The notes beneath the pieces were generated by a model. It saw nothing but the letters and a program-made list of their open reading frames with translations, ran no database searches and had not been told where the DNA came from. Below are positions 17,768 through 49,109 of a stretch of DNA of 64,000 bases, piece by piece; within the stretch, counting starts at the first letter, position 1, and each line of letters starts with the position of its first letter. This stretch comes from Hyphochytrium catenoides (taxonomy: Eukaryota; Sar; Hyphochytriomycetes; Hyphochytriales; Hyphochytriaceae). A program made the position numbers and the translations under genes. The stretch is taken from NCBI GenBank assembly GCA_900088475.1, contig FLMG01001570.1, positions 125,030 to 189,029 on the forward strand, read 5' to 3'.

Positions 17768-18728
17768 CTACGTGTCCTTTAACCTCTGCAAAACTGTAGA
17801 AACGGAGGCACTAGTCTTCCCTTCCTGCTGGGCATCTAATAGAGCCTTGACCTTCGGCCGCCATTCTCGCCCTCTGACGTTGATGAACCAATTGTTGACT
17901 TGATCTACCGTTATCGAGCACTGCTTTGCAAGCTGCAATTTCTCCTCTTCAGTGGGGTATGGATGGAGGTAATGGGCCCTAAGCCATGTCATAAGTGTCG
18001 CTCTGATCTCTTTCGAGAGATTTGGTCTCGTTTTTCTCTTGCTCTCTTGGGTAAGAGGCTTAGGTTGCTCCGCTGAGACCTTCGACGTAGAGGTAAGTGA
18101 GCGCTGGGCGGAGTCCATGTTGTCAGTTGCTCTCTTGGTATTTGCCAGAAACAGTGATTTTATCCCTTTTTGAAGCCTGTCCCGCTCCAAATGAGGGTCC
18201 CTCGGTCTAGATCTCGGTTCTGTTACCTCCGCCATGGCCACCTTACGATCGAAATCTTCCAAAAGAATGTCGACTTCCTTATAGAGCGCAGTCATTAGTG
18301 AAGAACTGTTTGGCGAGCCCACCATTGGCTGAAGCCTGCTCAACCTTCCACATGAGCCTTCGACTAGGACTTCTGGAGCTGACTTCCTAATCCACTCCCC
18401 TTCACGACCTGCAAAACGAGTGCACTACCGTTACAGGAACGAAGCCAACCTATTTCAGCAGACCCAACAGCTATAGGAAAGCCACTTAGCTGTCGATTGG
18501 ACCCAGAGCGCGATCTCGCGCTACTACTACGGGAACCAGGGACTGGACTTCCGCGGCTTCTCGAAAGACGCCATGATTGGATGTAGAAGGTTCAGGATTC
18601 AGAGCATCAGAAATAGTTGCTAAGTGTTTATTATGAAGAGGTGGTAACTCCTCGACAGCAAGGCTTCTTCCAGTATTATGGCCTTGATAATCGCCAGTTG
18701 TGCCCTGCCGCCTATTGGGAAGAGTCAT
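17768..18728 (-). CDS. TALE-class homeodomain transcription factor (left member of divergent pair)
   Basis: Two exons, 18728-18503 and 18408-17768, join in phase 1 and give 288 residues. The C-terminal homeodomain (about residues 198-260) has the TALE three-residue loop insertion seen as HYLHPYPTEEEKLQLAK, followed by the recognition helix VDQVNNWFINVRGREW. The WF-x-N-x-R core is intact. Upstream is a helical segment (SLMTALYKEVDILLEDFDRK) of a kind that could mediate dimerisation; I see no clear KNOX, BELL or MEIS box. The start ATG follows a possible acceptor (ttttacag), so an extra 5' exon is possible, but the one I tested gives a frame stop. The protein opens MTLPN, as does the divergent neighbour. 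A nuclear DNA-binding role follows from the family; its targets are unknown. Confidence 0.88.
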
Positions 18729-24195: not shown

Positions 24196-27100
24196 CTACC
24201 GTTTACTGGCCACCGGCTTGTCTTTAGATCTCAGGGGCACGGTCTCCTTGACGGTAGCCTGAATCGCTGAACCTTGAGTCTTAGATTTAGCCTTAGAAGG
24301 TGGTGTTCCATCCGATTTCTTTTCTTGGTCCTCTTCTTCTGAACTCCATTCTTCCTCCTCTCCAACAGATTCTTCTCCTTCCTCATCACCTTCTTCTTCC
24401 TCGTCGTCTTCGCCGCTTTCGTCATCCTCACTCTCTCCAGCATCATCTTCCTCTTCCTCTTCGCCCTGTTCCTCATCATCGTCTTCCTCTCCCCCTGTCT
24501 CCGACTGTGAGTCCACTTTTTTCTGAAGAGATTTCTCGCTAACTCCCTTGTTTAGCTTTTGCTCTGGAGCTCCAGATCCTGAGGATGCATCTGCCGTCTT
24601 TGCTAGAGGCAGGTCAGGTCGGATATCTGCTAGACGCTTGATGGAAGATAGGGGAACACAAGCTGACTTATCGCCATCCTTGAAGTCAACAGCATAGGTA
24701 CCATCAGCATTAGCACAGGCAATCTTTCCCTCATACCACAGTCCATTGTCGTATTGAGCTGCCACGGCTTCTCCCACTAAAAACGAGACGGGCGCCGGAC
24801 CTTCCAGGGTAAATGTGAAGATCACCTGAACGCTGCCATATCCCTCCTTGCTTGGCTTTTCCAGACCATAATCTGCGAATGGAAGAGTGAACGACTGAGA
24901 GTGAGGAGACGGTAGAGAAAGGATCTCAGCCATGTTGACTAAGCAGCCAGCTATCAATCTATCTGGCAGGGGCCAGATCTGCTTGTCCATGATACGAAGA
25001 GCGAGTACTGCATTGTCTCCTTTCTTCACTTGTATTTGGGTCATGGCATTCTTGAAGACTGGGTTGCGGCCGGCCCCATCTTCGACATCACTCTCATAGT
25101 TGTGTCCTCCTAAAGTGAGCCGCACATAGGGGTCTTGCTCTCCAAAAGTCTCAACGTTATGAAGATTCTGTGCGGATTTGACCTCAATCATTATTTTGGC
25201 GTTACAGCCAAAGACAGCGGCCCCAGTATTATGTTCTTCTGCTAGGCTCTTGCTATCCATAAACTGGTAGGTGACGTCCACTGTGCCGCACTTGTTGGTT
25301 CCAGATGAGGTTGCAGTGGAAGAAGTTGGAGGAGGCTGAAGAAGATGAAACTTCTGCACCGGAGCTCCATCTTCCTCAGAGATAAATGGAGAGATATCTA
25401 CAGTGGCCGTTCCTATGAGCGCATTATTTACAAGTCTCTCCACATAAAAGTGCAGCTCCAACACGCTAGACATCCCCGGCACCAGTGAGAAGTCATGCAT
25501 CGCACTGGCAAACTCAGGGTTCACATCTCCCTCGTTGGCTTTGATCTCCCAGATCTGGTTCTGCTCCAGCTTCACCTTCACAATGATTGTTTGGTTGCTA
25601 CTCAAGCGAGGAAGGCCGTACGCTCTATTAAGCTGTATCCTAAGAGTACCCTTTCTTGCAATCTTGATGGTGTTCTGGACCTCCGTGCTCCCTATTTCTT
25701 CAGCTCTCTCAAAGGTAAGCGCTAGTTCTACCTTGCCAACGTCTCCAGGCTGTTTGAAGTCGTGATCCTTGAAGGGAAGGGAGAAGATGGTCTGGACCTT
25801 TTTCTCTTCTTCTACGACTGTACTGAGGTCGATTTTGGCTGCCCCACAAGGTGCCTCAGAGCCTACTAATACGGGACACTCCATCATTTCCAAGACGAGA
25901 ATGCTGCTACTTTGTCCAGGCACAACCGCAAAGTCATTCGTTACGTTGCGGAAGACAGGTGCCATCTTCCCTTCCTTCGCACTTGACCCTTTCCAGGGTT
26001 TATGATTATAGAGGAGGAAAGGGTAGATCTCCCCATCAGGGAACTTCCTATCGAGATCAAAGGCTCGGAGTACTTGCACTCGAAGGTTGCCTTTCTTCAT
26101 GAGAGGTCTCTCTAGGACATTCTGCTGCCTTTCCAGGACGTCTTTTGAGGTAAACCCGTGTCGAAGAGTGACGTACACTTTCTTGGTTCCTCCATCGGTC
26201 ATATCTGCCTCAGAGGGTCGTAGGTCGTAGGTTGCTTCTCTCACTGCTTCCTCGTTGTTGATAACTCCGTGCACGTCTATCTCACCAGACGCGGCAAGAG
26301 AGAAGGTCCCAAGGTGCCCTTTAGAGAAGAGACGAACTGTTATCTTGCCCTCTTCTGCTGTCCGCGTTCTAAATACGTGGCAGGAATTCTGCCAGGAAGG
26401 AGAATCTCCCTTCCGACTGAGCCCGGTAACGAAGCGGTCAGTGTTATAGATAAGCTTCGCATAGCATTCTGCCTTGTTATCGCTTTCTCCTTCAAGAAAG
26501 GCGCGGACAACCTCAACAAATAGTTCTCCTTCGCGTTTGACGGGCAACAGCACACTTTGCTGGAGCTCTTCGACGCTTCGGAAAGAAAGCCTAACGGTTA
26601 TCCTGCCATAGCTGCCGGGGGATGATAGAGAGAGATTGGGATAAAGTAGCTCAAAGGTATCTTCAATTCGCCCTCTTTCTCCCCCCGCCAGAGAAGTGAT
26701 ATCCACATCCGTGGCTCCAACCAATTCGTCAGAGGTTAGGCCCTTTCGATAGAGCCCAATTATCAAGTAGCCCTCTCCCTCTTTCTTTGTGGAGAAGTCA
26801 ACGACACAGTCGGTGAAGGTCACTCCTCTCTTATAGCCCACACTAGACTCCGACTTTTTACTCTCTCCGTTGTACACCATCATAGCGCAGTACTCCTGCC
26901 CTAGAAGAGAGCTTTGCTGGGGCAAGTCATACGCTTCCAAGACCTCAACCTGCAAAAGACCAGCACGGGAGAAGGAAGCCGCGGAGCGAGCAAGTCGTTT
27001 TTCACGTATGGATTCAGGCTCAAAAGAGAGAGAGACAGAGACCAAACCGTAGTCCCCTGCTTTGGAGAGTGTTTGGTCAGCAAAGCAGAGTCCCACAGTC

Positions 27101-30100
27101 TCTATGAGAGGCTTCCTCTCTTTGATCAAGTCTGACACATCTATCGCTGCAGCTCCTAGAGGCTCCATAGAGGTGAGAGAGGATAGGAGGATCTCTATGA
27201 CCAAGAGGCTGGAATCTCCTTTCTTCACATCAAAGTTGTGAGAGGCGAGATCAAAGGTAACAGCACTCCCTTTCTCTTTAGCTTTTTCTGACTCGAATTT
27301 CTTTCCAGAGAAGAGAAAGCGTGCAATCGCTGATCCTCCTCTCCTATCGTTGAAACCGAATGCGCGACTGACTTGCACACGGAGTGAACCACTCTCGTCG
27401 AGAGAGGTTCCTTTAGTCACTCCAGAAAGAGCAGAAAGGGCTTCTGAGTCCGTGAAAGATAGAGATAGCTCCAACCATCCCATGTCCTCCCGTTTGCTCA
27501 GAGCTGTATCGGCATAGTCCAGTCGAATTAGCATCTCTTTCCGTTCGTTATGCTTGGCTGTGTTAACAAACTGAGCTAAACCTATCTGGGTTGCTCCTAG
27601 CACTTGGTCAATTGCCAACATCTCCCTTTCCCTCAACCTGACAACCAAGCGACCAGGTTTGTTGGGGAGAACTGTGAACGTACTGGCAGCATAGTTGAAC
27701 TCAGGAGAGCTATGCTGGCTGACGGTCACGCCGGACTTATATGGAGGATTCTCAGCTAGGTAGAGCTCCACATAAAGTTCCCCACGCTTCTTTATGTCAA
27801 ATCCTCTATTCACAATGATTGTCAATCTACCTTTCCTCTGGAACATTGCTTCTATCCCTTCTCTCTGTTGTTGAATAACATCCTCTGGCAAAAACTCTAC
27901 TTTCAGCTGCACTTTCCCAGCCATACCGGCTCTGGTGAGGTCTGCATCGAGGAAGTTGAGGATCGGAGATAAAGAAAGTGCTTTTCCGGAGTTGACCGCA
28001 GAGGAAATGTCCAGTTCGGTAGCTCCTATGATGGTGTCCTTCGTCGCGTTGTCATCGTACACTAAGAGGCGAAGAAGCCCCATTTCTCCTTTCTGGATAC
28101 GAAACACATGCTTAGCATCCGGGAACTTGACGGCTCTCCCTCCATCTCGCACTGCGGTAGAACGGAACGATTGACCATTGAGCTCGAACTGCAGAAATGG
28201 ATCTTGCTTCCACAATTTGTCTACCTCTCGAAGATCGTATGCTGTCTCGGCATGCACTAGAATGGCGCCTGACTGGTTAAACGGGGCAGCTATCATGCTC
28301 TTTTTCTCCATTTCGTTCTTGTCCTCGAATGAAAGAGACACGACCACCTTTCCATCCACAGGTTGGGTTCTCCCTTTGCCACTCGCCATCACTTCGTCGG
28401 AGTGAGATAAAGAGAACACTTTGTCCTCGATCTTTGCGCCATCATTGACCACTTCAGCCACACTAAGGCTCACTTCGCCAATTACGGTCTGCTGTCCTAA
28501 CCCCAGTTGATCAACGATCCGGACAATGAGGCGGTCCGGATCTCCTTTCTTCAAGTCCAGGCGGAAGTGACTGCTGTTGAAAGAAGGATTCCTGTCCCCA
28601 TTATTACAGACGGAGCTTGACAACTCCTGGTGACCAAAGATCACCCTCACCAACGGGTCTTGAGTCCCTAGATGTCGAACCACTGGAAGATCGAAAGCTC
28701 GAGGAACGCTTACATAGAGTACTCCTTCCTTCTCTAGAGGCCTGCCCATGGCGGCCTCCCTTTGCTTCTGCAAGGGATCCACGAATGCAAAGGAGAGCTC
28801 TATTCTGCCGAGGTCATTCTTCTGCTTTCTAAGAGCTTCATCCTCATGAGTCAGCATAAAGGTCTCCCTTAATGTTCGCTTGGTCGACATGACTCTCGTT
28901 AAAATATCAGTGAGATCCAATTGACAGGCGCCGATGAGAGAGTCGCTTAGCACATTGTGGTCCCTTACCCTGACTACAAGCTTGCCACTGTCTCCCTGTC
29001 GAAGAGTAAAATTCCTCACTGCATTGCGGAACAAAGGATTTGTTCCTGCATCTTCAGCAGTCTCTGAATGCCAGGGAGGGTGGTCTCCAAGAAGAAGCTC
29101 AACATACGGATCTTGCTTACCCAACGCCTGAATATTGCGAAGGTCAAAGGCACGGTGGGCAGTTATGGTCAGCTCCCCATCAACAGGAATCCGGGAAACG
29201 ATCTCGTTTTGCTTTTCCTCAGCTCCGGATAACAAACGGAAACGCAGCTCCACACTGCCGCTCCCTCCTTCGACCACCATATCAGGATCCTTGTACTCGA
29301 GAGGGAAGGAAACAGTCTTCTCTCTCAATCCGCTGTTTAGCTGTTGTGAGCCCAGCTCGCGCACTATTCCGGCCAGGCCGATCTGTGTCGCTGAGATAAC
29401 GCTATCGCTAACAATTCCTCCTCCCATGGCGTACACCTGGAGTCGCCCACTCTCACCCTCTCGTACAGGCAGCTCTGTGACAGCGTTCGAAAAAGACGGG
29501 GAGACAAGGTGCTGGCTTTGTCTATCCGTCTCGAAGACATGCTCTCCTTCTCTCCCGATCAGCTTAAAGTAACGAGTTGCTTTCTGCAGCTTGGAAGGAG
29601 CTGGAAGGTCCCATGCCCTCTCCACCTGGATGAAGAGTTTTCCATTGCAGTCGAAGGGTTCTAAGACCAACTCCCGTCGTCGGTCTGCCTCGTCCTGAAA
29701 ATCCAGAAGAAGCTCTACCTTACCACAGCTTCCGGGGATCTTCATTTCGACATCCTGCGGTAAATAGTTGGAAGGGAACAAGAGACACAGATTGAGCGGA
29801 AACGATAAGAGTGAGGAGGAAAGAAAGGACGACCACCCGGACCGGGCGTTGTTGAGAGTAAAGATGTAATAAGAAGCGGTGTAAGAAGCTTAAGAAGACG
29901 AGGAGAGAGGCTGTGACTCTGGTAATCGTAGAAACAGACAGGCAGACAGACTGGCATATAATAACTGACTCGAAGCCGTCTAGAAAGGCTGCTTATGTTG
30001 GCACAAATTTGGCCAATCGTCAACCAGGAGGACCGAATGCATAAAATAAAGCGATAGAAACAAGTTGTCCGCACCTGGTAGTCCAAGTCTATTGTGAGCC

Positions 30101-33100
30101 TCATCTTGCCGGTTTTAGAGGTTGCTTCCCCCAGCCCTACCTCGGCTACTCCTATAACCTTATCAGTCAGAGTGTTATAGTCTATGACACGCACCACCAT
30201 CCTCCCGCTTTCTCCACTTCTCACTTTAAACTCCTTAACTGCGTTAGAAAAAATGGGTGAGGTGCCACCGTCTTCGGCAACCGATGTCTTGAAAACCTGT
30301 CCGAGAAAGAGCAGCATCACGTACGGATCTTGCTTGCCTATGGTTTGAACTATTCGGAGATCGTATGCCTTGACCACTTCCACGCGTAGCTTGCCTCCCT
30401 TAATTATGGGAGTCTCAAGTCTCTGCTTCCTTTCTCGCACCTCGTTGTCGCTAAGGAAGGACAAGAAGAGATCAATCTGCCCATAGTCTCCTGGTTTCTC
30501 CAACTTCTCATCAGCGAATCGAAGGGGAAGAGACATGGTCATTTGAGGAAGAGTACTTTGACTGTTGTTGACTATGTCAGCGACGGAAAGAGCCCCAACC
30601 CCGAGCACCGGATTGTGAGCTAGAGCATCGCTCTTCACAACCACCAGAAAACGGCTGAGGTCTCCATCTTCTACTATGAAATCCGTTGTAGCATTAGGGA
30701 AGTGAGGAGTTTGTCCTCCGTCTTCCACTACGCCGCTTCGGTAAACGTGAGAGTTGAACAAGAACTTTACATATATGTCCTGTCGTACGAAGCTAATCAA
30801 GGAAGCTTGAGGTAGGTTGTACGCCTTCAAGGCCTGCACAGTCAGGCGGCCCGGACGGCTAAGTGGTACAGGAGGTGGTATGAAGCTCTGCATGGCAGCG
30901 GCGCTGACGAAGGAAAGAGATACTTCTACACTTCCAAAAGCTCCTTTGCTCCGCATTTTCTCATCGCTATAGATCAGCTCCACGACGTGAGAGAAAACGT
31001 CTATTCTGTCTCTTGCGTTGCCGTCCACTGGTCTTGTTGCTCTCTCCTTCTGCTCCATGATTAATTTCTGAACATTCAGTTCTGCCACTCCAATGAGTGT
31101 ATCCATTAGCGGTCCACTATCGAAGACATACAGCAAAAGGCGGCTCTCTGTTCCGTTTTTTGCCTTAAACGAATGAGTCCCCTGCCTGAAAATGGGGTTG
31201 CGTCCTCCATCTTCGGCGATATCAGTTTTGAACTTCTGGCCACTAATATAGAGTTGTACGTAAGGATCCTGTTGCTTTTCCACCTCTTTGAGGTTCAAAC
31301 AGCGATGAACGCAGACGGTCAAAACTCCATCTTCGTCAAAGAGGTCGGCCGCAGATGAGGCTGCCAAAAGTTCCTCTGGCTGGATAAAGGTCAGACGCAA
31401 GTTCACAGTACCACATGGCTCTCTTTTCGACAAAGCAAGATCAGCATATGACAGTGGAATACTTAGCTCTATTGGAGCTCCTTTCTCTTGGCTCACTAAG
31501 ATTGCCCAGGCCAAGCCAAACTGAGCCACTCCCAAGACATTGGCTGAAAGTGTTCCAGGTGCCAGAGCATGGAGGAGCAGACGCCCGCTTTGGCCTTTTG
31601 CGATGGAGAACTCGTGCACCGCGTTCAGAGAGGAAAAGTTTGGGGCCGTTCCTTCTCCTTGTGCAACTGGTGTCTCATAACGTGTCTCTCCTAGGAGCAA
31701 GCGGATGAGACAATCCTGAGGGCGAAGGAGGACATCCGAAACCTTGTTCTGTAGGTTTTTGAGTCCGTACGCCTGAAGCACCTCAAGCCTTAACCTTCCT
31801 GAGCAGGCGAAGGGCTCATTTACGTCATTCTCTTCCGCAAGAGCCTTCTCATCCAGAAACTGCAAAGAAACCTCTACCTGCCCACAGCTTCCTTTTTCTT
31901 TCTCTTTGACTCCTGTGTGAGTTGGCTCTAGCTCATAGACACTAACATTTGCTCTTTCCACGGACGTTCCTAAGACGATCTCGTCAAGCGGTATCCGACA
32001 ACCACCAATCAGAGAGTCAAACAATGCGTTGGCGTCCATAACTTTTACCAGCAGAACGGCTGGATCGCCTATCTTCACCTTAAAATCTGTACATGCCGAG
32101 GAGAAGATAGGGTTCCGGCCGCCATCGATTGTAGCGGAACTTCTGAAGGATTCGGAGCCAAAGACAAGATGAACATATGGATCCTACGTAGAGGGACAAG
32201 AGAAGGAAGTATCGTGATACAGCTTTAGACCCCTAGGCGCTGGGAGCGAACTGACAGACGCGTGGCAGAAAGGAAATGGACGGTAGACGGAGAACCAAAA
32301 TGAAGGACGACAAAAGGCGACGACAAAAGGCACCTACCTGTGTTTGCCCAGTTATCTCAACGTTGCGTAAGTTGGTCGCTCTTGTCACGTTCACTCGCAA
32401 TAGCCCTGGCTGGTCCAGGGTCTTCCTCAATCTTGCCTCTCTCCGGAGCTCATCTTGTCCCTTAAAGGAAAAGCAGAGCTCAATCTTACCGCACAGCTTC
32501 GGCTTTGTGAGTTGCAAGTCTTGGTACTCAAGGTCTACGGCCGTCTGGAGGACGTGGCGGGATCCGTTGACGACATCTGATAGTGCAATAAGCGTAGCAC
32601 CTCTGACAGGATCCTAACGATAAGAGGGCCAGAAACAACTATTAGAATGGTTGATAGAAAGCTCGTCATTGTAGAGATTGCAAAACGCGCCCCAAAGACC
32701 CGCAACATTAGCAAGTCGAGTTCACAGGGCAACTTGTGACCATGAGCAAAAACTGTAGAATGCCCTGGTCGGTGGACAGATAATAAGAGTGTCCGAGAAC
32801 ATGCAAGCAGGCAGCTTCTCCCTGGCGTGAATAAGATGCCTTACATTGAGCAAACTGTCCTCCACCAGGATGAGCTTTAGAGCGCCAGCTTCTCCCTTTT
32901 TGACCTCCAGGAATAAGTTCTGCTCCTCCGTGAACTCCCCTTGACCATCCTGGACTGCCACCATTCCGCTCTTCAGTTCCTGTTCACCAAAGAAGAGCCT
33001 CACGTAGTATTTTTTGGAGCTGGGAAACATTGTAGAGGAGGAGAGAAGGCCCCTATTCTCTTCAAGCTGCATGAGGCGGAGGATCTGAACTTTGACCTGC

Positions 33101-36100
33101 CCCTCCTTCTCAAGCATCCTGTACGCCCGCTAGAAACATTGAAGAAAATTAGTCTTCGGAGGCACCGGCACAAGACAGAAGCTTAGCACGATGGGATCTC
33201 AAGGAAAAAGAGGGCGCGAATCGCCCAAAATAAGGCTAGTTCCCTATGATGCGCGATTGACAGGAGAGACACGGGAGCGCCTAAGCCTTGTAATGGCAAT
33301 GAGGCAACAGCAGCAAGGACAGCAAGGAGAGATTTTCTCTGTACCTGCTGCTTGTGTACGGTCTCAAGGGTGAGGAAGGCCAAAGAGAGCTGCACTCTCC
33401 CGCGATCTTCTCTCTTCGACAGCTCAAGATCCGTAAAGTCCAGTGGATATAAGCCCTTTTCCTCTTTTCCTTCCTTTCCTCCTTCCAGGCAACGTGATAA
33501 TCCAATCTGCGTTGCCCCAATGAGCTTATTCTCTCCAACGGTGTCCTTATCATAGACTCGGACTAGGAGCGTTGCCAAGTCTCCTATTTTCAGCTCAAAG
33601 TCATGAGTCTCATTGTGGAATACAGGGTTACGTCCTCCGTTAATGACTGGCTTTGTTCTGTATACCTGAGAGCCATGCAAGATCTCCACGTATGGGTCCT
33701 GTGGGCAGGATTTCAGTAGAGGCGGCTCAAAAAAGTGCAGGGTAAAAGCACTACTAGCTGCATTTCAAACGTGAGGAGACAAGAGTAGAAAGGAAGGAGA
33801 TAACTAAGAGGCGTAGAAGGAAATGGGGAAAACGATAGGTGAGCCACGGCTGAGGGAGGGCAAGGACCATAGCTGCATTGAAGCTCGTTGACGAGTTCTC
33901 CAACGTTTGTCGATATTTGCTTCTCACCTGCTTTCCTATTGACTCCACATCCTTGAGATCCACACAGCTGTGGACCTGCACCCGAACCACTCCAGCCATC
34001 TTAACTACCTTGCCCAATTCTTGATGACGAGCAGCCGTTGCCTCGTCCATGAAGGAGATGCTTAGTTCCAATCTACCTTTCCCTTCCCGTTTCCTCATGT
34101 CCAGGTCCTTGTACTCGAGAGGAACAGTGAAGGTCTTTTCCCCTTGATCAATACCTCCCTCTCCTGCTCCGATATAGGGCTCTATGCTAATCGCTGTGCA
34201 GCCTATAAGGGAATCTCTCAAGTTGTTATCGTCCCAAAGGCGTAGGAGGAGCTGTCCACTTTCTCCTTTCTTTACAAAAAAGTCATGGATGACGTTAGGA
34301 AAGACAGGGTTCTCACCACCATCTTCTGCTACCTCTCCCCTGTATTTCTCCTTTCCTAGCTGCATTTGGACATATGGGTCCTGCTTGCCCACCAGCTGTC
34401 CTTCCTGCAAGCCAAAAGCACGGTGAACCTGAACGCGCACTACTCCAGAGCGCGAGACGGGGCGTAGAGAATCCTCCTTTTCTTTGAGAGCTACCTCGTC
34501 AATGAAGGAGAAAAGCAGCTCTATTTTGCCACACTTCATAGGCTTCCGCAACGCCGTATCAGCGAAGTCGAGCTCATAGACTTGCTTCAGGGAGGAATGG
34601 TTGGTTGATCTGGAGGAAGAAATGGCTTCCAGAATGTGTGCAAGGCCGATTTCCGTGGCGCCAATCACAGAGTCTTTCACGGCATTCTCATCCATAACTT
34701 GGACTACCATCCTTCCAGGGTCTCCTTTCTTGAGAGAGAACAGAGTGGTTGCGTTGCTGAACGAGGGATAGCGACCTCCATTTTCTGCTGTCTCACTCCT
34801 GAAGCGCTGTTCAAGGTATTGAAGCTTAACAAATGGATCCTGACTGCCTAACAGCTGCACATCTCGGAGGTCAAAACATCGCAAGATCTGGACCTGAAGT
34901 TCACCAGACAGAGGGATTGGCGCGTTGCATTCCTCTCTCTTCTTAAGCACTTCTTCGCCTATGAACGCGAGGGAGAGCTCTATCTTGCCATTCTTTCCTC
35001 TGTATTGCAAATCATAGTCCGAGAAGTCCAGGTCATAGATATCCCTTCGTTCCGTTCTTCCATCTCCAGGTTCCCCATTTACTAGCTCGGACAAGCCCAG
35101 CTCTAAGCATCCAATTACCGAATCAGCCAGATTATTGTCGTCTAGCACGCGGACAATGAGACGGCCAGAGTCTCCCTTCTTGACCTGAAAGTCATGACAT
35201 GCATTGGCAAATACAGGGTTTCTCCCTCCATCCTCGGCAGTAGCAGTTTTCCACTTGTTGTCTCCCAGCTGCATCGCGACGTACGGGTCCTGTTCTCCTA
35301 GGATCTGAACTTGTTTCAGGTCGTAACACCTAAGCGCCTCCACTCTGACAATGCCGTTTCTCTCTAAAGGTTTCTCTAGATTTGTCCGCCGCTGTATAAT
35401 TGTTTCGTCTAGAAAGGACAAAGAAAGGAGAAGTACTGAGTGGGGTTCCTGAGTCTCTTGTCCCTTGTGATCGACAAGCAGCAGCTCACAAGGGAGCTGC
35501 ACCGACTTGCCGGCGTTTAGGGTGTCTGCTAGGCCAAGACTAACTTGTGCCACTATCTTGCCACTTCCGTCCGTGGATATCAGTTGCGCAGTAAGGCGGC
35601 CACAATCTCCCTTTTGAAGGAGAAAGTTTCCCCAACCCTTAAGAGATATGGTAGACTTGCCCTCCGGCCCCACTGCGAAGTGTTCTGACTCGCATGTCCC
35701 TGTGCCTAAGTTGAAAACTAGCTTATAACTTCCTGATATCGGTAGAGAGCTAGAAGTGCTTGACTGTTGCTCATCTTGTGGTCGGCCCTTCTTCAGCTGA
35801 AGACTCAAGGGCTGCAATCTGAGGTGCCCACCATGATTAATCTTACGGCTCAGCTCTTGTTTCCGTCTCCGCTCTCGTTCTTCCTCTAAGGAGATTTCCA
35901 GCTTGACCTTTCCAGTTAACTGGGGGCAGAAGAGCTCGACATCGGCAAACTCTAGGGGTACGTCCACCTCTGTTTGCCTCCTTCCGTCCTGTAACATGGT
36001 GGCTACGCCCAAGAACCCAGATCCGAGGTGCACTTTCTCCGCCTTTCTCTCGCTGTGGCCGTAGACATGAATCCGGACAAGACCGGCAGCATTCATTTTC

Positions 36101-39100
36101 AACGCAAGCTCGACCCTTTTGCCCTTCCCCAGCTTCTTGTCTCCGTGCGCCTGCACATCGTCTCCGCGGGTTTGCCCTGCAGACGGTGACCACTGGCAGC
36201 TTTGTGGCATAGACCCATGGTCTAGCTCTATATCATAATGATCGAACGTAGTGCCGACGTGAGACGCATTTCTTGGGCTAGACGCTAGGGCAGGGAAGAC
36301 TCCCAATATGCCGATCTCAGCCACTACATTCTCTCTCAAGGGTTTCTGACTCTCTAGCAACCTCTGATGAAGCTCTGCATGGAGGAACGCTAGCGAAAGT
36401 TCCACTCTCCCAGATGTCCTTCTCTCTTCCAGGTCCATATCCGCATAACTTAGCTCCACCAATTCATGCAATTTACCCCCTTTTTCAATAGCCTCCAACG
36501 CACTGAACTCCGTAGCCCCAATGAGTTGGTCTCGCAAGTTTGAGTCATCGAAGAGACAGAGAAAGATCCGAGTGCTGTCCCCTTGCTTAACGATGAACTC
36601 TGCTACCGAGTTAGAGGGAAACGAGGGCGATCTACGATCAAGCCCAGAGTTGCAGATAGAGCAAAAGTAAGTGCAAGCAACAAGCCAAAATTTGTAGACA
36701 GAGACGATTCCTGACAACCTATGTCGTACTAGCTATCGAGGCGGAATGGACCAGAGGGACGTGCTTGAGGAACACAGATCATTTGGTTGGAATACAAAGG
36801 GTAGAGTAATACTGGTGAGAGCAGAAGGCGGCCCAGGGTCTACGATCTTTTGCCTACCTTCCTCCTCGGTGAATGATTTGCGACTTGTATCTTTGTCCAC
36901 TGAACGTCACAACGGCGTAGGGGTCTCCACTGCTATCTGAGCTCTTCAACGCTAGATCAAAGGCCCGATGTACCTAATCGTAGTCGTGTAGGAGAGACAC
37001 TAGGTAAGCAATCTTTGGCGGTACTCTCCTACACGAAAGGCTACGCGAACCCTAGCAGATTCCTTCAAGCCTATCGTCAGCACTGTTTCCACTCGCTACT
37101 CGCAATGCGAGAGTATAGCGGAATACACTAGCTGGACACATGTGCTGCTCAGTGTCACGACTCTTTTGCCTCTTGAGGTACTAAGACACTCCTGCCTACA
37201 TCGGCCCTTCCTCGTCGTGATACCTGGATGCGAAGGACACCGCTTTTCGGCGTAGGGGTATTCAGAGTGCACTTCTGCACAAATCTGGATTTTTCCATAA
37301 AGGAAAGCTCCAGCTGTATCTGGCCAAGACTTTCACCCCGCCTAGTGAGTTCCGCGTCTTTGTGTGTAAGTGGTAAAGATAAGGATCGCCATCCTGAGTG
37401 AGAGAAAACCGACGAGAGTGGAATCTCCGCAGCTCCTATGACAGAGTTCTTAAGCACTCTGTCCATGACCTGCAGTACCATCATCGCAGACTGTCCTGCC
37501 TGCGCCTCGAACTCGTGAATAGATTCGGGAAATGCAAACGTCTCCCCTAGTCCGGTGTCGCTCTCTGCTTCTCCATTGGAAAGCAGAATAGGTGCCCCGC
37601 AGGCAGTTGTCTGAATCTGGTCCCTATACACTAGCCGAAGCACAGGTTCTTGTCGTCCTATTCCCTGAGTCTTACGGATATCGGTGGCAGATTTGATTCT
37701 AATCCGGATGATGCCGTCCTTCGGTAGCTTCGCCTTATTACTAGCTCGCTCCTTCTCCTCCCTCGTCAAGAAGGATATTGAAAGGGTTACAGACCCATAA
37801 GAACCTCGTTTTTCCAGTGCATCATCCGGATAGTCTAACTGGATCGTCTCTGACCTCAATACCTTGTTCTTGGTAAGGATGTCGATGACGTTGACGACAG
37901 TGCAGCCAGCAATGGCAGGATAACTGTATAGCATGATGAGTAAAGGTTGATCGAAAGAGTGGCGGAAGGAGCAACAGTACGAGAAGCAAAGGTAGATCTT
38001 GGACGCAGCACTAACAAAGAGGCAAGAATTAGGATGAGGAGGCGCCAACCTGGCATTATCCTTCACCACTATAAGGAGTTTGCAGTCAAAGTCCAGATCA
38101 ACCATAATATCTTTCGCCTCGGAAGGAAGTTTCTCGATCACAAGCTGCTTGTTTCCTGCTCTAAGCTCTATGGAGGTGGACAGCTTGTTGGTGGAAGCGG
38201 GAAAGGCCTTGGCCTTGGCCAGCTGCGCACTATGCACTACAATGGACAGGAAACCTTCAACGTTTGCCCTCTCAGTTCCTTTACCCCACTCCCTGTACTT
38301 TGATTGTATAGCCAGTGCTGCGTCCTGCTGTCTGGCAAATAGTTCTGCTTTTGCAAGCTCCTTCGCCTTACGTGGTCCATTGACATTAACTGCAAGATCT
38401 CGCTCCAGCTCCGCGAAACGCTGAAGACGAAGCATTTCGTCTTCAATAAGCGGTTGAACAGCTGAAAACTCTCCTTGAGCGTTTTGGTTTCTGTGTTGAA
38501 GGCCATACGAAGAGAGGAACTGAGTGTAGTGACTTGATACCCGACTCCTCTATGGGCGTGTGCTACGTGCAAACCTGCTCTATATATTGTCCAAGGTGCC
38601 TCTTGACCGATCTTCTGATTGACCCCATACACCATTTTAACGGTATGACAAGTTCAAGATCCCACTTTGACCCCAAACCACTTAAGCAGTCCAGGACTTA
38701 CGTGCTAGCCGTAGCCTTAAGCTTCTTATTTTTCCTCTTGACATGTGATAGCTCTGTCTGAAGGAGGGAAAGCTTCGTCTCCTGCCCTTTAAGTAGCTCA
38801 GACACCTTCAAGACTTCTTCTCTCAAACTAACAGTCTCCTTTCTATAGTGTTCCTTCTCGGCTTCCACCTCCCAGAGCTTCTTATATTTGCTACAGTTTC
38901 GGATGTCAGACCAAGGGAATGAGCCAGCTTCAATGCCCACAAATGGGGCCGGATGCACAAAGAAAAGGCACCATAAGGCTGTCTACTAAGTACTTGAAAA
39001 GGAATCTAAGATATGGGAGAAGAGTGGAGGAGCTCTTCTTGGTCAGCGTATCGAGGGGTAGGATAGCTTGGTAGAGGCAGATATAGGCGATTTCGGCAGC

Positions 39101-40308
39101 CGATGAAGAACCATTCGGTACTCACGTTATTGAGATAAGGCGTTCCAGTTCTGCCTTACTTTCTGCAGCTGTCTTTTCTAGACTTGAAATCTTTGTAGTG
39201 ACAGGCGGTGTTTGTTGCATCGTGACAGGCATGAGATTAGATCGGTAGTGAAGCGGAAAGAAAGAGTTAAAGGGGAAAGTACAGGTCAAAAAGGAGGGGG
39301 CGTGGGATAGTTCGTGATGTAAGCCTAACCTTGGCGGCAAGCTTTTCTTCTGAGACGGACGATCTAGCCAAGTCCTCATCCAGCAGTCCCGTGGGCTTGT
39401 CACTTTTAAGGTAGGCTAGTGCTTTGGCCAGCTAAAGGCAGTCATCTGTCAAGACGTGCTCCTTTCGCCTTGACTTCTATTTGGTTTGTATCGGCGTACC
39501 TCTTTATCTTTCCTTTTAATGAGCTCGTCCTGTCGCCTTAGCGCAGACCGGAGCGCCCTGTTGTCCTCTTCCTGTCGTAGTAATGTTCCTTTAAGAGAGC
39601 GCAGTTCGTCTCTAGCAACAATGAGTTGGTCCTCTGAACTGCGTTTAATCCCACCATTCTGAGGTAAGAAAGGGGTTCCGAAGAGTAAAGGTCAGCAGGG
39701 GAAGAACCAAGCGAACAATGATGTCAGTTGTCTACCTCATGACCATCCAATGAGACTGTCTTCACAGCTCCGCGAGATTTCTTAATGAGCTTTGAAGCTA
39801 GTTCATCAGAGCTCAGAAGCCGGTGGGCGGTCGAATAGCTTTCATTGGCGTCCTGGATGGTATAAGGCCAACGTTAGCATCGATCAAAGAGACGCTCATA
39901 AAGGATCAAGAGAAATCGCTGACCGATCAGAAACAGAGAAGAAAGAGGTGTGAAGAGGACGACAATCAGTAAAGTTAATAAGCCATGCTGTAGGTAAAAA
40001 AGCGCGGCTCGAGTCGCCCACGACGGTAGTAGACTCACTGACCATTATCAAAAATTTTGGGGGCAGACAACTGAAAAGGGTCAAGGGCGCATCAGAGCGT
40101 TGTCATGTACCCCTCCGCCTCTATTTGACTCCTCCTCAACAATTAGTTCCATATCCAGCGATTAGATAGCCTAAACAGGCCGTTGAGGCCCATGCTTGCA
40201 TGATGAGCTGCTACCTGGTGGGCGTGAACTATGCGCACCACTCATCCTTTGGCGCTTCTTCTGCTTCCGACTTTCGATCGGTGCACCGCTTTCTGGAGCT
40301 TCTGTCAT
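24196..40308 (-). CDS. Giant multi-C2-domain protein (about 4,400 aa, about 26 C2-like modules) with N-terminal coiled coil and C-terminal Tudor/SH3-like module
   Basis: About 15 exons. The N-terminal exons (about 40308-40172, 39853-39735, 39663-39501, 39432-39337, 39209-39124, 38911-38700) encode basic and coiled-coil sequence such as ARDELRSLKGTLLRQEEDN. From 38.4 kb a ~150-170 residue module repeats: G-x-L-x-V-x-V-x-R-A-x-D-L, then QDPYV, GGRNPVFxNAxxxF, DSxIGAxxxxL and LELSLSF. I count about 26 by the first motif. The largest exons are 36631-33929, 32183-30075 and 29754-24196. Many modules keep DPYV and a loop-3 Asp but lack the first loop-1 Asp, so Ca2+ binding is doubtful for many. After the last C2 comes a Tudor/SH3-like strand set (NGLWYEGKIACANADGTYAV), a tail of nearly unbroken Glu/Asp and a basic end. 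A membrane-scaffold role at contact sites or in trafficking is inference. The N-terminal start and two small exons are less certain. Confidence 0.85.
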
Positions 40309-43080: not shown

Positions 43081-45278
43081 TCATCTTGCGCTGCTTTCTG
43101 CCTTCTCTACCAACCTCATAAATAGCTTGCAGAACTCATCGAAGCTAACAGTTCCACTTCCATCCACATCCCGCGCTTCAATATATCCTTTGACATCAGC
43201 TTCCCTGATGTCTGACCCTGGCTCCGTAATCTCTCTCAGGAGCTTCATCACCTCGTCTGAGTTAAGATTGCCATCCTTGTCCACATCGAAGCGGTCGAAT
43301 GCAGTGCGGAGCAAGGCCTTCGCGCCTCTGAAGTGACGAATTTGCTCCTCTAATTCTTGCCTTCTTTGGAGGAGGGGCTGTACTCTCAATTTTTCTAAAC
43401 GCAATTTTTGCTTCCACTCGGCAAGCTGCTGTCTCTCGTGCTCTAACGTCTCTTGAAGCTCTTCCAGCTCCAGTCGCAGCGAGTTCTGTTCGCACTGGGC
43501 CGTAGACATCTTCTCCAGGGTGCCCAGACCTCGACCGTGTAGCTCCTTTTCTATCTCCTGCTTGCTTAGCAGTAGCTTTGAAATGTCTTGCTCCAGCTCA
43601 ACAAGAGAAAGCACTGGTTGCCCACTCAAGGCAGAATAGGCTCTCTGCTCCTTCTGCAGCCCTTCCTCAGCCGTGGTCTTCTTGACTTGTAGTTCAGCTA
43701 GGATAGAGTCGAGCTGGAGGGACAATTATGAAGCATGCATTAGAGAGGCTAGAATAGGAAAGTGCTATTCAGAGTAGCCGTCCTTGCAAGCAAGATGGAG
43801 AACCAGCTCATGGGGAGACGTTTGGCCAGCTGCTCGTCGATGATCCTATGCACTCTAATCCCCTACAGAAGTTTACGGTCAAGGTTAAGACAGACGAATG
43901 GAAGAGTACCTTCTTCAGCTGATTCGTGAGCTCTGCATTCTGTGAAGAGAGCTCTAGAACTCGTTCCTGTAGCTCTATCGGTGTCTTTAGGTGGGAAGAG
44001 GGCACTGACTTCTCTTTTGGAGGGAAAGGACTGGAGCTTTGGGCCTTCAAAGTCTGATTCTCTTTCCGCAGCAGCGCCTAAGGTGGAAGCTATGAGCTAT
44101 CCCAAGCTCTTAGGGAAACTTTCCCCAGTGAGAAGACCTACCGTTTGCTCCTTTTTCCTAACAATCTCCTGTCGAAGAGCTTCTTTCTTTTTTCGTAGGA
44201 CTGCTGTCCTATAAAGTAGATCCTCGGGGTCTTTGGTGAATGCTCTTGTCCGGGACAGTTGAGGTTTGCTGACTGTAGAGGGAGAGAGCAGTCAGACAAA
44301 GACTCGGCGATCCTTCATGGTTCTCATTTGCTTGCTGCTGCCTCTCTCTCCTTTTTTCAGGTTGTGATCCCTGTAGTGGTCTTCACCCTGCTCTCTCTTT
44401 CTCTCTCTCAGGACCTCTTCGCTCTCTGTTAATGTGTAGGTATGTGCTTGTGGCAAGTCGTCTCTATCCTTAGCCGTTCATACAGGCCCTGCAATCTAAA
44501 TCCAAGTCACACATTACGTACCTTCTAATGTTTTGCCCTTAGATCTTGAGATGGATGCCTTCGTCGCCCTCACAACGTTCGACAAGGATTTGGCAACAGA
44601 TGCTAGGGAGGCGGTTCCTGTGGGTTTGCCAGTAACTTTCTCTATAAAATTTGTGACTGTTCGACCCTTTGGCTCCTTGCTTGCGCCTTGCGCAGGCGGC
44701 TCCCTTGTCGCCTCTTCCTTGCTGGACTCTGTTGATGGCGCCATTCGAGCTTGTGCTTGTGAAGAACCGTCCTTATGGGAGAGATCGACAGGAGGAAGGG
44801 GTTTCTCGCAAGTTATGAGGTCAGGATCCACTCTGTCATCTACCTCACTCGAGTCATACTGTACAGAGAAGGTTCCATCGCCATTGACCGAAGTAATCGT
44901 TCCCAGATGATACTTGGTAAGGCCCCGCCGTCTAACACGTACCCTAACGCCTATCTGAATGATGTCAGAAGTGGCTGGCTCACTGAATGGTGTTCTGCTA
45001 GGACCCTGTGACTCTTCTTTCTGCTTTGGGTTGGGTACTAAGCTCTCAGAAACTGGCTCCGTGCTGGCGTTCTCTGCGCCTTTTACTTTTTGAGCAAGCG
45101 CATCCGATGCTGCTTCTGAACTAGCGTCGTCGTCTAAAGCTGTTCCCGAGGCTTGCGATAACAGTTGCCCTACTCCAAGATGTCCCTCCACTGGTGCAAC
45201 GGAGCGGATCTGTTCCTTGCCCTTTGGGCTTTCCTTCTCAAAATCTTCCCCTCCATAATCGTCTTCTGCCTCAACCAT
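43081..45278 (-). CDS. Tudor-like, coiled-coil and EF-hand protein; 5' end unresolved
   Basis: The first resolved exon (45278 to about 44527) begins MVEAEDDYGGEDFEKE, is acidic and Ser-rich, and contains a Tudor/SH3-like module: IGVRVRVRRRGLTKYHLGTI, then SVNGDGTFSVQYDSSEVDDR. The next exon (about 44272-44132) is basic coiled coil (LRKKKEALRQEIVRKKEQ), followed by exons around 44090-43910 and 43870-43804. The last exon (43713-43081) is long coiled coil and then two canonical EF-hands: DVDKDGNLNSDE and DVDGSGTVSFDE, each with all Ca2+-ligand positions. This implies a Ca2+-responsive scaffold. The splice between about 43804 and 43713 does not keep frame as I read it, so that junction needs correction. 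The Tudor-like module resembles the one ending the C2-array protein; whether they cooperate is unknown. Confidence 0.75.
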
Positions 45279-46156
45279 TGCCACAAAGCGTCGTTGCCTC
45301 TGCTACCCCGTCATTGGTTATGTGAAGTCCAGAAATGGGCCTAGCTCTTGACCCTCGTAAGAACTTTCACAAGGCGCTTTTCCGTGCCATCCGCGGCTAC
45401 CACGACCTGTGGAGAACGTCTGATTACTTCTAGAGGACGCCCAGATGGACCCTTGTTCAGAGTTCTGACTAGTGTCAGCAGGGATAGGAAGCTCAACCGC
45501 GGAGGTTGAAGACGCGGCGCTGACCAGAGGCCGCAAAGGCTTTCCCTTGGGTAAAAGTGTCGTTACATTCTGCAACAAGCTTAAAGATTGCGGATAAGAT
45601 GGGGCAAAGCATGATGATAAGGGGTAGAGCTGAGGATTATCCGTAATCATTTGAGTTTGTTTTCGACAGTGTTTTCGGAGTTCGATGATCGGGTTCTGCT
45701 CCCTTCAAAAATCTGAAGCTCCATCTACAGAAATCTGCAGTTTGCGTGACATTCTGCTGCAGAGCTTGAAACACTGCAGGCCAAGTGATTTATTATTGAG
45801 TAGGTTCCATTGCATAGCTTCCTGGTCGAGTACGTTGACCACTAGCAGATGTCCTGGGCTCTCAGCCCACCTACCCTGCGACCTTATCACCAAGCAGAAC
45901 CGGAAGGTTCATCAGCCCCCGCTGGCCTTTAGGGGAAGTGGCAGGCCGTGATACTAGGTCAGAGGCGACGATGATGGCGTCACGGACAAAGTTCGCACCC
46001 AGAGTGTATAATAAATGTTTTATACGGATAAACTTGCATCGTACAGCGGTACCGCCGTGAGAATAAATAGCAGAAACAAAGCAGTATACAAGACGTATCC
46101 AGACATAATGTAGGGCCGCCCGGCCCGTCTTGATCGACATAGACAACAAAGAAAGG
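45279..46156 (-). other. Probable upstream exons or leader of the EF-hand gene; PP2C 3' flank
   Basis: On the minus strand two stretches look coding: about 45690-45340, with a helical opening (NPIIELRKHCRKQTQMIT) followed by Ser/Pro-rich sequence, and about 45830-45710, around MQWNLLNNKSLGLQCFKL. They lie between the PP2C stop and the first firm exon of the EF-hand gene and are most simply its N-terminal exons. I could not find donors in the right phase. From 45900 to 46156 nothing is supported beyond PP2C 3' sequence. Confidence 0.35.
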
Positions 46157-49109
46157 TTAATCAGAAAGTTCAACCCGAAACTCGCCATCATCCTCCATAG
46201 AATCATCGTGGCTGTTGAGCGGAGAGCTGGGTTCGCGGTACTTATCACCGAGTGTTGCCACCACAATTGTCATATTGTCCAGTCCAAGCCCTTCGCGACG
46301 GTGTCCTGCCTGAGTTGGCGACAGACAGGCATCAACTAGAGTCTCCAGGATGTCTGAGAGCTTATCGCCCCGTCCAAGTCCCCTACGAACATAGTCGCAC
46401 ACCTGCTGGCTTTCCAGCACCTCCCATATGCCGTCACAAGCAAGAACAATAAACTCATCCTCCGGACTCAGATCAATAGTGCGCACGTCTGGACAGGCTG
46501 TGATGGCTTGCATCTCTGCCGGAAGGTCAGGATTCTTCTTGAAGTCCAGGTCACCTATCATAAAGGAATTACGACAAATAGACGGGTCAGATTAAGTTGA
46601 CTCGTTGGCAAACACCTTGGAAGTAGCCAAGGGAAGCCATTGCGTACTAGAAGGCTACCGCCAAACCATGGCGAAGTAGGTAGTGGCACTTGATAGGAAG
46701 GACTCCGGTACCGAAGATGAGTAGCACTCAGAAGCATAGAAAGAGAGACTAGCTAAGCACACATTCATTCGCCTTACCTAGCGCTCGAGAGAGGTTCAGA
46801 CTCCCATTCACTCGGCCGTTTACAACGTTGGCGCCTGCTTTTTGGATGCGGTCCATTTCCGATGGGAGCTCAGGCTTATGATCCACCGACATATCAATGG
46901 CCTTACCGTCCCGACAAAGGACGCATCTCGAGTCACCAGCATTTCCTACCACCAGCCGATAGTCAGGAGTAATGAACGCCACCACAGCCGTGGAGCCCGC
47001 TGAGCAGCCTTCTCTCTCCCTCTTTTTCGACCTCCCTTTTGCTGAGTCAGCTCCACCTCTGGATCTGGAGATGCTTGGTTCTCGCGAACTGCCAGCACGA
47101 CTGGCCCCAGTTGCTGCAGCTCTATGGCCCTCCTGAGAGTCAAGTCCAGCGGACTCTTGATGCTGGGTAAGAGCCTCCTGTAACAGTGATGGCTCCTTTT
47201 GACTGAGCATTGCACCTCTGTCTCTTCCACCCGCGCCTATCCCTATGCTTCCAGAAGATAAGTCATGGGGAGCCCGTCCTCTCGGAAGCCTGGTGTCGTC
47301 CCCACTCTCATCCGTAGATTCGCACTCAGGAGAACGAGGAGGTGACGACACGGCCATCAGTGCGCCCATTCTCTCGGATATCGATTTCTTTCTGGTGCCA
47401 TCTGCTCTGCTATCATCACTGTCATCCAGGGAAGGACCCGTAGAGATAACCCCCGCTATGCTTCCAACCCTTTCTCTCTTCCGATTTGTCGGTTTAGGCT
47501 GCCGTGGGCGATAGACTCTCTCCCTGGGTATTTGGCCATTCGCGATACCGTTAGGGCTCGGATTAGGGCTTCGAGATAATTTTGATGAGGAGCTGTTTGG
47601 CATGAACATGCCAACACGAAAGGCAGGGGAACGGCCGAACATAAATGGGTTGACTCCACCATCGGGAGCAGAAAGAGATAGGCCAATCGTAGGATCAGTT
47701 TGGTGAGCGAGAAAGCCATCCACCTCCACTCCAGGCGCCAGAAGAGACGTTCCTGGAGAAGGAGGAGACATAAAGGGCATGGACGACGGAGTGGGGACAG
47801 GGGACTGGTAGAGAGACACTGGCGGGCTGCTGCTGTAGGCATACGTGGAAGCTTGGGCTCCTGCGAGGGGTTTCCGAGAGATTGGGATAGGGCCTTGCCT
47901 CTCATCTCCTCTAGCAGGAGCAATTGGGATTCCGCTTCTTTCCACTGACAAATCCTCGCTCCTCCGTCCAGAGCTTGCTGCCATGGCCATGTCATCTGTA
48001 CTCTCCATCGCTCCTCTCCCGTTATAGCGGCCCTGTCCTAGGACAGAAGATGTTGTAGGAAGACTCCTCGCTAATTGGCTTCTTTCTTCAGCCCCTGCAC
48101 TTCCTGGCCTCCTAGGTATAGGGATGCCCTCTCTTCTTGCTGCAGCGTACTGTCTCCTGAGAGCTGGATCCGTCTGCATTTTCCTCGCTCTATCTTTTAG
48201 AAACTGCGAGAGCATCTCCACCTTGCTATTCACCTCTGGATCTTCATCACCTTCACCCTCTGCAGCCAGTTCTTTGAGCTCTTGTGCAGCCTCTTCTGTC
48301 CCTAATCGCTGATCTATCTCCAGGTAACCCTGTGCTATGGCGCGGATAAGGTCTCCATGGCTCTGATAGTAATTGAGAATTATCTGGCCAAGATGTCTGC
48401 AAAAAATACATGTAGTGAGCGGAGCGTATGGCTAAAGCAGAGCGAAGATTGAGCGACATTTTGATGTCTTAGGAAGTTCTATGACAAATAGACCAAGACA
48501 AGTTGTCTAGCTTACGCCGCTGCCAGTAATATTAATGTAAACGTGGCATACAAAGAGGAAAATTCCTAAGGCACTGAGCACCATAACGAAACAATGAAAG
48601 AGGTCAAAGAGTGGGTCTCACCTTGAAAGGTACTTAGAGACTTCTCCGCCTGCACCAAGTAGCGGGCAAGAAAGAGCGGGGACGGTGATCAGCGTTGGCA
48701 TGGAAGCTTTCTGAAGACATGTGCAAAAGAGCTTTGGACCTTACCAGAATGGCCGTCAAAAACTCCGAAGTATCGTAGGCCGTCCTCAGAAAACGTCAAA
48801 TCCACAGCATGAGCATCTTCCATAAAGCGCCTCCAACCATGCATGGCTAGAAGACATCAAGGATAAGCAGGAACCAAATGGTGAGATGCTGAGTGAGCAG
48901 GAGGAGCCGGGCGTACAGGGTACAGGTACACCTGCAGAGTAGTGCAGGATGACATGTGCAACGAATGCTGAACTTGACCCTTCGTCCCTCTTCGGCCCGT
49001 CTACCTTAACTTCTGATTGATTCTCACCTGTCACGGTGTACATAACGCGGTCATCGCTTCCAGATTCCGTCACCTTATCTCTAATTGGACTACTGAGCAG
49101 CTGTCCCAT
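46157..49109 (-). CDS. PPM/PP2C-family Ser/Thr phosphatase, PPM1G-like, with a long Ser/Pro-rich insert and N-myristoylation motif
   Basis: Metal-dependent protein Ser/Thr phosphatase. Exons 49109-49028, 48846-48745, 48649-48622, 48396-46778 and 46554-46157 sum to 2,229 nt in phase, giving 742 residues. Motifs in order: [11 protein letters not shown] (Glu37, Asp38), [12 protein letters not shown] (Asp58-Gly59), then after the insert [57 protein letters not shown] (metal Asp) and [13 protein letters not shown] (metal Asp). The N-terminus MGQLLSSP fits the MGxxxS myristoylation consensus, as in several PP2Cs. Residues about 110-530 split the catalytic domain with a Ser/Pro/Arg-rich, likely disordered insert. 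PPM1G has an insert at the same place, but an acidic one. Membrane tethering is inferred from the motif. Confidence 0.93.

Follow-up and report, generated by a model that had tools for sequence, protein, structure and literature searches.

The window analysed here is a stretch of 64 kb from the genome of Hyphochytrium catenoides (contig FLMG01001570.1, C760:125030-189029; assembly of 42.5 Mb in 1105 contigs), and all coordinates below are positions within it unless stated otherwise. Its minus strand carries a giant gene whose product consists for the most part of 26 tandem modules of the C2 type. C2 domains are a fold commonly used for attaching proteins to membranes. The anatomy of this gene, that is its reading frame and its modules, is firm; what the protein does is a separate question, for which several answers are weighed below. 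The features of the gene are as follows, in the direction of transcription; basis of assignment is given in brackets, and ORF denotes open reading frame.

39736..39852, minus strand: exon with which the confirmed frame opens (DANESYS...), in the N-terminal region (spliced frame)
38403..39852, minus strand: coiled-coil-like N-terminal stretch of residues 1-240, spread over five exons and running into a sixth (by eye)
38280..38336, minus strand: IQ-like motif (AALAIQSKYREWGKG), residues about 263-281 (sequence reading)
37770..38282, minus strand: C2 module m1, degenerate, intron inside (left-out profile, 37.7 bits)
37299..37769, minus strand: C2 module m2 (left-out profile)
36385..37298, minus strand: C2 module m3, two introns inside (left-out profile)
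35413..36384, minus strand: C2 modules m4 and m5, the most degenerate, 15.1 and 13.0 bits (profile; predicted structure like tandem C2 chains)
34051..35412, minus strand: C2 modules m6, m7 and m8 (folded together; mean predicted local distance difference test score, pLDDT, 80.2)
33375..34050, minus strand: C2 module m9, intron between Q and DPYV (module cut, intron mapping)
32464..33374, minus strand: C2 module m10, two introns (module cut, intron mapping)
31857..32463, minus strand: C2 module m11, intron between Q and DPYV, column as in m9 (module cut, intron mapping)
30456..31856, minus strand: C2 modules m12, m13 and m14 (left-out profile)
29698..30455, minus strand: C2 module m15, 320-base intron inside (spliced frame)
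24196..29754, minus strand: last exon, coding for 1852 residues from the final part of m15 to the stop (ORF and splicing)
24811..29697, minus strand: C2 modules m16-m26, eleven in one uninterrupted exon (ORF, left-out profile)
24637..24801, minus strand: Tudor-like domain (JMJD2A Tudor 2gf7, E 1.2e-5 by sequence)
24199..24591, minus strand: acidic C-terminal tail, residues 4250-4391, 49 D/E versus 18 K/R (composition)

Gene Structure

Long ORFs of 1897, 992, 813 and 464 codons follow one another on the minus strand. Spliced in silico, 14 exons between 39852 and 24196 give one frame of 4391 residues (first exon excluded), in which all junctions are in phase and the sole stop is the terminal one at 24196. 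The continuous minus-strand gene with exons joining in frame that was claimed in a preliminary description is thereby confirmed. Its 13 introns measure 68-320 bases, and eight of them fall inside modules, affecting six (one each in m1, m9, m11 and m15; two each in m3 and m10). Flanking exons are thus needed together for whole modules, which counts against separate genes. That the locus instead holds several genes, whose exons join in frame merely because neighbouring genes share the module, is very improbable: the last exon by itself does provide eleven whole modules, but every one of the 13 introns is GT-AG, eight interrupt modules, and the joined frame is free of stop codons.

The introns of m9 (33699-33927) and m11 (32184-32337) occupy the identical alignment column in the identical phase (between Q and DPYV, phase 0), which suggests either that an intron was copied along with its module or that the site received an intron twice.

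The start of the gene had been placed at 40308. This is possible, but it is not established. When introns of 60-700 bases are allowed, candidate first exons offer 42 donor-acceptor combinations; from the ATG at 40308 the acceptor at 39852 can be reached in frame solely via the weak donor GTTTAG (about 40176), the six other donors being out of phase, and the ATG at 40152 competes, with an in-frame route to the same acceptor via the donor GTACAT.

Modules and Their Fold

Cut at the closing strand, the array yields 26 modules of 129-163 residues (about 150), with a mean pairwise identity of 24% (range 10-43%). Each module was scored with a profile from which it had been excluded, m1, m4 and m5 never entering any profile, and was compared with its own sequence shuffled 100 times; depending on the module, 67-90 of these shuffles gave a score. 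All 26 modules outscore all of their scored shuffles, in agreement with the figure of about 26 given earlier. The highest score for a shuffle of any module is 7.5 bits, and the lowest for a real module is 13.0 bits (m5, whose best shuffle reaches 3.1). Together with m5, m1 (37.7 bits) and m4 (15.1 bits) make up the weak modules; the remainder score 58-170 bits.

Three lines of evidence support the proposal that the modules are C2 β-sandwiches: Pfam, profile matches in the PDB, and the predicted structures of five modules. A six-frame search with Pfam C2 gives nine matches within the gene, a lower bound, all above the curated cut-off of 22 bits. The three large exons match Pfam C2 with E-values of 1.5e-38 to 2.6e-58. 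When exons are scanned singly, 37922-37224 and 36973-36858 show C2 beneath the Pfam cut-off, and nothing in Pfam matches 33129-32845 or 32613-32338, which contain portions of m10 and m11. The module profile matches 42 PDB sequences at E <= 0.001, ferlins and synaptotagmins among them, the best being otoferlin (2e-13). The predicted structures of m4-m5 and of m6-m8 (mean pLDDT 80.2) show the eight-stranded C2 β-sandwich, and no non-C2 fold, which had been named in advance as grounds for rejecting the assignment, appeared in the five modules folded.

Comparison of these structures with the PDB by Foldseek places ferlins first for m6-m8. Chain 3A of entry 9nw3 ('Ciliary tip central pair') ranks first of 833 matches (E <= 10) for m4-m5 and 19th of 1347 for m6-m8, where E-Syt2 also stands above it; the C2A-C2B pair of E-Syt2 is among the top fold matches of both segments. 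A viral structure library returned 27 matches at E <= 0.001, with template modelling scores to the query of 0.09-0.18, and these were judged meaningless.

Ends of the Protein

Pfam domain scans were made exon by exon over 12 of the 14 exons, a procedure that a junction-spanning domain could escape. Within this scope nothing besides C2 exceeds its cut-off: no enzyme domain was detected, and FerI, FerB, DysF, SMP and PRT_C are absent from the matches. The N-terminal region looks like a coiled coil, a candidate read from the sequence by eye, and nothing in the portions scanned lies above a Pfam cut-off; nor was Pfam IQ detected at the IQ-like motif. At the opposite end, the Tudor-like module announced earlier is upheld by the match to the JMJD2A Tudor structure, although Pfam Tudor_2 (21 bits, cut-off 31.4) and Agenet (19.4 bits, cut-off 27) both stay below threshold. 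A second Tudor-like stretch was seen by eye at 44517-45302 (minus strand), in a neighbouring ORF upstream of the giant gene.

The protein had been described as lacking a transmembrane anchor. This is probable, but the picture is not clean, as the hydrophobicity maximum (Kyte-Doolittle, 19 residues) reaches 1.73 at residues 2048-2066. The four top windows start at residues 2038-2049, all in m12; since the peak sits within the C2 core of that module, it is not read as a membrane anchor.

Calcium Ligands and Loop Pattern

Canonical calcium-binding C2 domains hold the ion with five acidic residues of loops 1 and 3. Judged in the sequence alignment against these canonical positions, none of the 26 modules has the full set. 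The Asp of DPYV, the Asp of strand 6 and an Asp that precedes the loop-3 glycine by four residues are each present in 14 of 26 modules; the D4 column holds Asp in two, and the D5-aligned column holds Asp in none and Glu in two. All three of the former residues occur together in ten modules (m3, 6, 7, 8, 11, 13, 15, 17, 19 and 26). Loop 3 of the modules is one residue shorter than that of classical C2 domains, and for this reason the Asp before the glycine may or may not stand in for D5. Given that no module has a full ligand set, most modules probably work without calcium.

From m10 to m20, the three loop acids are present and absent in strict alternation over 11 modules: odd modules keep all three, and every even one lacks one or more (in m18 just the third is gone; m20 carries Glu at two positions). 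Among shuffles, 0.7-0.8% match this run, a percentage that is not a true probability, as the pattern was sought after the table had been seen. The same holds when borderline modules are scored differently: with m20 counted as kept the run is 10 (2.0% of shuffles), with m9 counted as kept (Asn at the third position) it is 12 (0.5%), and with both it is 11 (1.1%). The profile scores zigzag more weakly, with a longest run of 14 (p 0.025) and a p of 0.24 for the number of turns. The alternating loops are best taken as a hint. Duplication of module pairs as their origin is unsupported: outside the loops, identity has no period of two modules, being no higher at lag 2 (0.249) than at lag 1 (0.249; shuffle p 0.52), and nothing there marks odd and even modules as separate lineages. 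If the pattern is real, the array might form a two-sided ribbon, every other module being turned towards the same membrane or filament, and the protein would then act as a long, regular ruler or zipper joining two surfaces; we consider this quite a long shot. No description of C2 domains in such a role was found in the open literature searched.

Relatives

A search of the organism's own genome with m6-m8 gave 20 matches, 18 of them on the contig of the window; the other two are short and lie on contigs C15 and C565, and no second copy of the gene was seen. The full-length search (residues 280-4200) returned one protein at E <= 1e-5 among 1638 scored candidates, namely a 'Synaptotagmin-5' prediction of 3744 residues from Durusdinium trenchii (P0001; E 4e-48). 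Residues 1-1640 of the last exon gave none at this threshold among 7999 scored. As the database holds 5.8 billion entries, an individual C2 relative would hardly pass this threshold, so the negative outcome with the last exon speaks only against close relatives of the whole array.

P0001 likewise contains a long C2 array, with 14 Pfam stretches (15 rows by the module profile, two of them below 4 bits), which means that long C2 arrays are not unique. In other respects it differs: identity is 26% over 15% of the query, and P0001 carries SAM and EF-hand domains, not found in the scanned exons of the window, and has no Pfam Tudor. The protein sets a precedent for such arrays but is not an evident orthologue.

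A tree was built from 48 C2 domains, comprising 23 of the 26 window modules (m1, m4 and m5 left out), 13 of the 15 P0001 rows (the two weak ones left out), four rows from the organism's own genome and eight reference pieces. It is weakly supported, one of 45 inner branches being starred and 32 open. The window modules group together, requiring three changes where shuffles average 16.2 and none of 500 is as low. A single clade is not rejected for the window modules (p of the approximately unbiased test, p-AU, 0.716), for those of P0001 (0.696) or for both together (0.887); the tree does not decide on a common origin of the two arrays, which it neither shows nor rejects. Searches of open literature on proteins with many C2 domains, on cilia, and on dinoflagellates, oomycetes and stramenopiles yielded no description of a protein of this type.

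Proposed Function

With many weakly binding modules, an end that may oligomerise, and neither an enzyme domain nor a convincing anchor found, the anatomy fits a multivalent scaffold. The gene would then encode a soluble giant protein. Its coiled-coil-like end, which may serve in oligomerisation and has an IQ-like motif, is followed by 26 C2 modules on short linkers, and the chain closes with the Tudor-like domain and the acidic tail. Such a multivalent ribbon might hold a membrane to the cytoskeleton at the flagellum, the basal body or the cortex through many weak C2 contacts, mostly independent of calcium. The ten modules with better-kept loops would provide membrane or calcium contacts, and degenerate modules would serve as spacers or in protein contacts. 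We tentatively favour such a soluble scaffold joining membrane and cytoskeleton, perhaps at the flagellum, at somewhat less than even confidence; location, partners and calcium dependence are all inferred.

As far as its genome indicates, the organism is a stramenopile-like protist, probably flagellated and probably non-photosynthetic. Six-frame profile searches found a radial spoke gene, whence the suggestion of a motile flagellum, and gave no match for the chlorophyll-binding protein PF00504, weak evidence in searches that ignore introns. A BiP (Hsp70) exon, located on a contig other than the window's, has mainly ochrophytes as its nearest named matches among the 120 listed (Heterosigma 80%, Spumella 79%, Florenciella 78%, Chrysophaeum 78%), though the top two by score are an unnamed protein (72%) and a fish BiP (62%). 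Placement at the flagellum is circumstantial, drawing on this probable flagellum and on C2 proteins known there. For the central pair at the ciliary tip of Tetrahymena, a preprint names a C2-bearing tip protein, C2D1, and proposes that it might link microtubule and membrane (PMC11642885); we infer that 9nw3 belongs to this preprint and that its chain 3A is C2D1.

Several observations weigh against the scaffold. What 9nw3 chain 3A shares with the modules is the tandem C2 fold, at 12% identity, and for m6-m8 it is outranked by ferlins and E-Syt2, so that the match says nothing about location. With 537 D/E versus 479 K/R over residues 250-4190, the array has a slight excess of acidic residues, which is not expected of a charge-driven lipid binder. 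Some of the ten modules with three acidic loop residues could bind calcium.

The first alternative is an array that binds proteins only, along microtubules or the centriole, with no membrane role, as has been suggested for some C2 domains of C2CD3, CEP120 or Tetrahymena C2D1. The appearance of the ciliary tip chain among the best fold matches speaks for it, as do the motile flagellum suggested by the radial spoke gene and the three calcium-independent C2 domains of CEP120, which may bind microtubules (PMC8239364). The fold match, however, is to a domain type and not to a family, and no ciliary family exceeds its Pfam cut-off in the exons scanned; we regard this explanation as unlikely, though a serious contender.

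Rather more doubtful is a calcium-triggered membrane tether or fusion factor in the style of ferlins or extended synaptotagmins, with calcium acting at the better-kept modules. The top PDB matches of the module profile (otoferlin, myoferlin, synaptotagmins), the first place of ferlins in Foldseek for m6-m8, the three Asp residues kept in ten modules and a similar loop 3 in the C2B domain of Trypanosoma brucei E-Syt would all agree with it. It is opposed by the hallmark domains (FerI, FerB, DysF, SMP and PRT_C), none of which exceeds its cut-off in the 12 of 14 exons scanned, by the lack of a clear membrane anchor and by the D5-aligned column, which is never Asp.

Neighbouring Features

Pfam matches elsewhere in the window mark the following.

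675-1253, plus strand: acyltransferase gene fragment
17771-18424, minus strand: homeobox (Homeobox_KN) gene fragment
43084-43725, minus strand: EF-hand protein gene fragment
46752-48431, minus strand: PP2C phosphatase gene fragment
53291-53845, minus strand: presenilin-like match, just below cut-off (32.5 bits, cut-off 34.3)

The same genome contains another giant uninterrupted frame, of 4102 codons, at locus L030 (G000:C41:10000-19999). In the 3333 residues read, IQ, Ig-like, one C2 and MORN lie above their Pfam cut-offs and LRR below; low-complexity LSLSL and RERER stretches are also present.

Comparison with Known Multi-C2 Proteins

MCTP proteins possess a C-terminal transmembrane/PRT_C region; in the giant protein, a Pfam scan of the C-terminal 204 residues gave no PRT_C above cut-off, and none of the four top hydrophobicity windows lies there. 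Extended synaptotagmins (the FAM62 proteins) share its tandem C2 domains, and the C2A-C2B pair of E-Syt2 is close in fold, but their SMP domain was not detected in the 12 exons scanned, nor their N-terminal membrane anchor in the joined exons from 39852. Ferlins are also tandem C2 proteins, and the otoferlin, myoferlin and dysferlin group supplies the best PDB profile and Foldseek matches; in contrast, FerI, FerB and DysF are not found in those exons, and in place of the single C-terminal transmembrane segment of ferlins, a Tudor-like domain and an acidic tail follow the last C2. No hallmark domain of the three multi-C2 families compared (ferlins, extended synaptotagmins, MCTPs) was detected in the exons scanned.

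With Tetrahymena C2D1, a C2 protein on microtubules (PMC11642885), the fold alone would be shared, if chain 3A of 9nw3 is this protein. The centriolar protein C2CD3 has five C2 domains of the PKC type and a divergent one (PMC8239364), far fewer than the array described here, and no sequence link between the two was found. Ferlins have four to seven C2 domains (PMC2923515). The range of three to eight given in the preliminary description for known multi-C2 proteins needs amending, as zebrafish FAM62A2 has nine (PMC1976326) and the P0001 prediction 14 Pfam stretches. Among the arrays compared, that of H. catenoides is the largest, with 26 modules against nine in the published case and 14 in the database prediction. 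If it is real as one protein, C2 domains can form long scaffolds, as Ig or spectrin repeats do, and with this gene a flagellated protist provides a defined case in which to study whether C2 arrays tie membrane to cytoskeleton without calcium.
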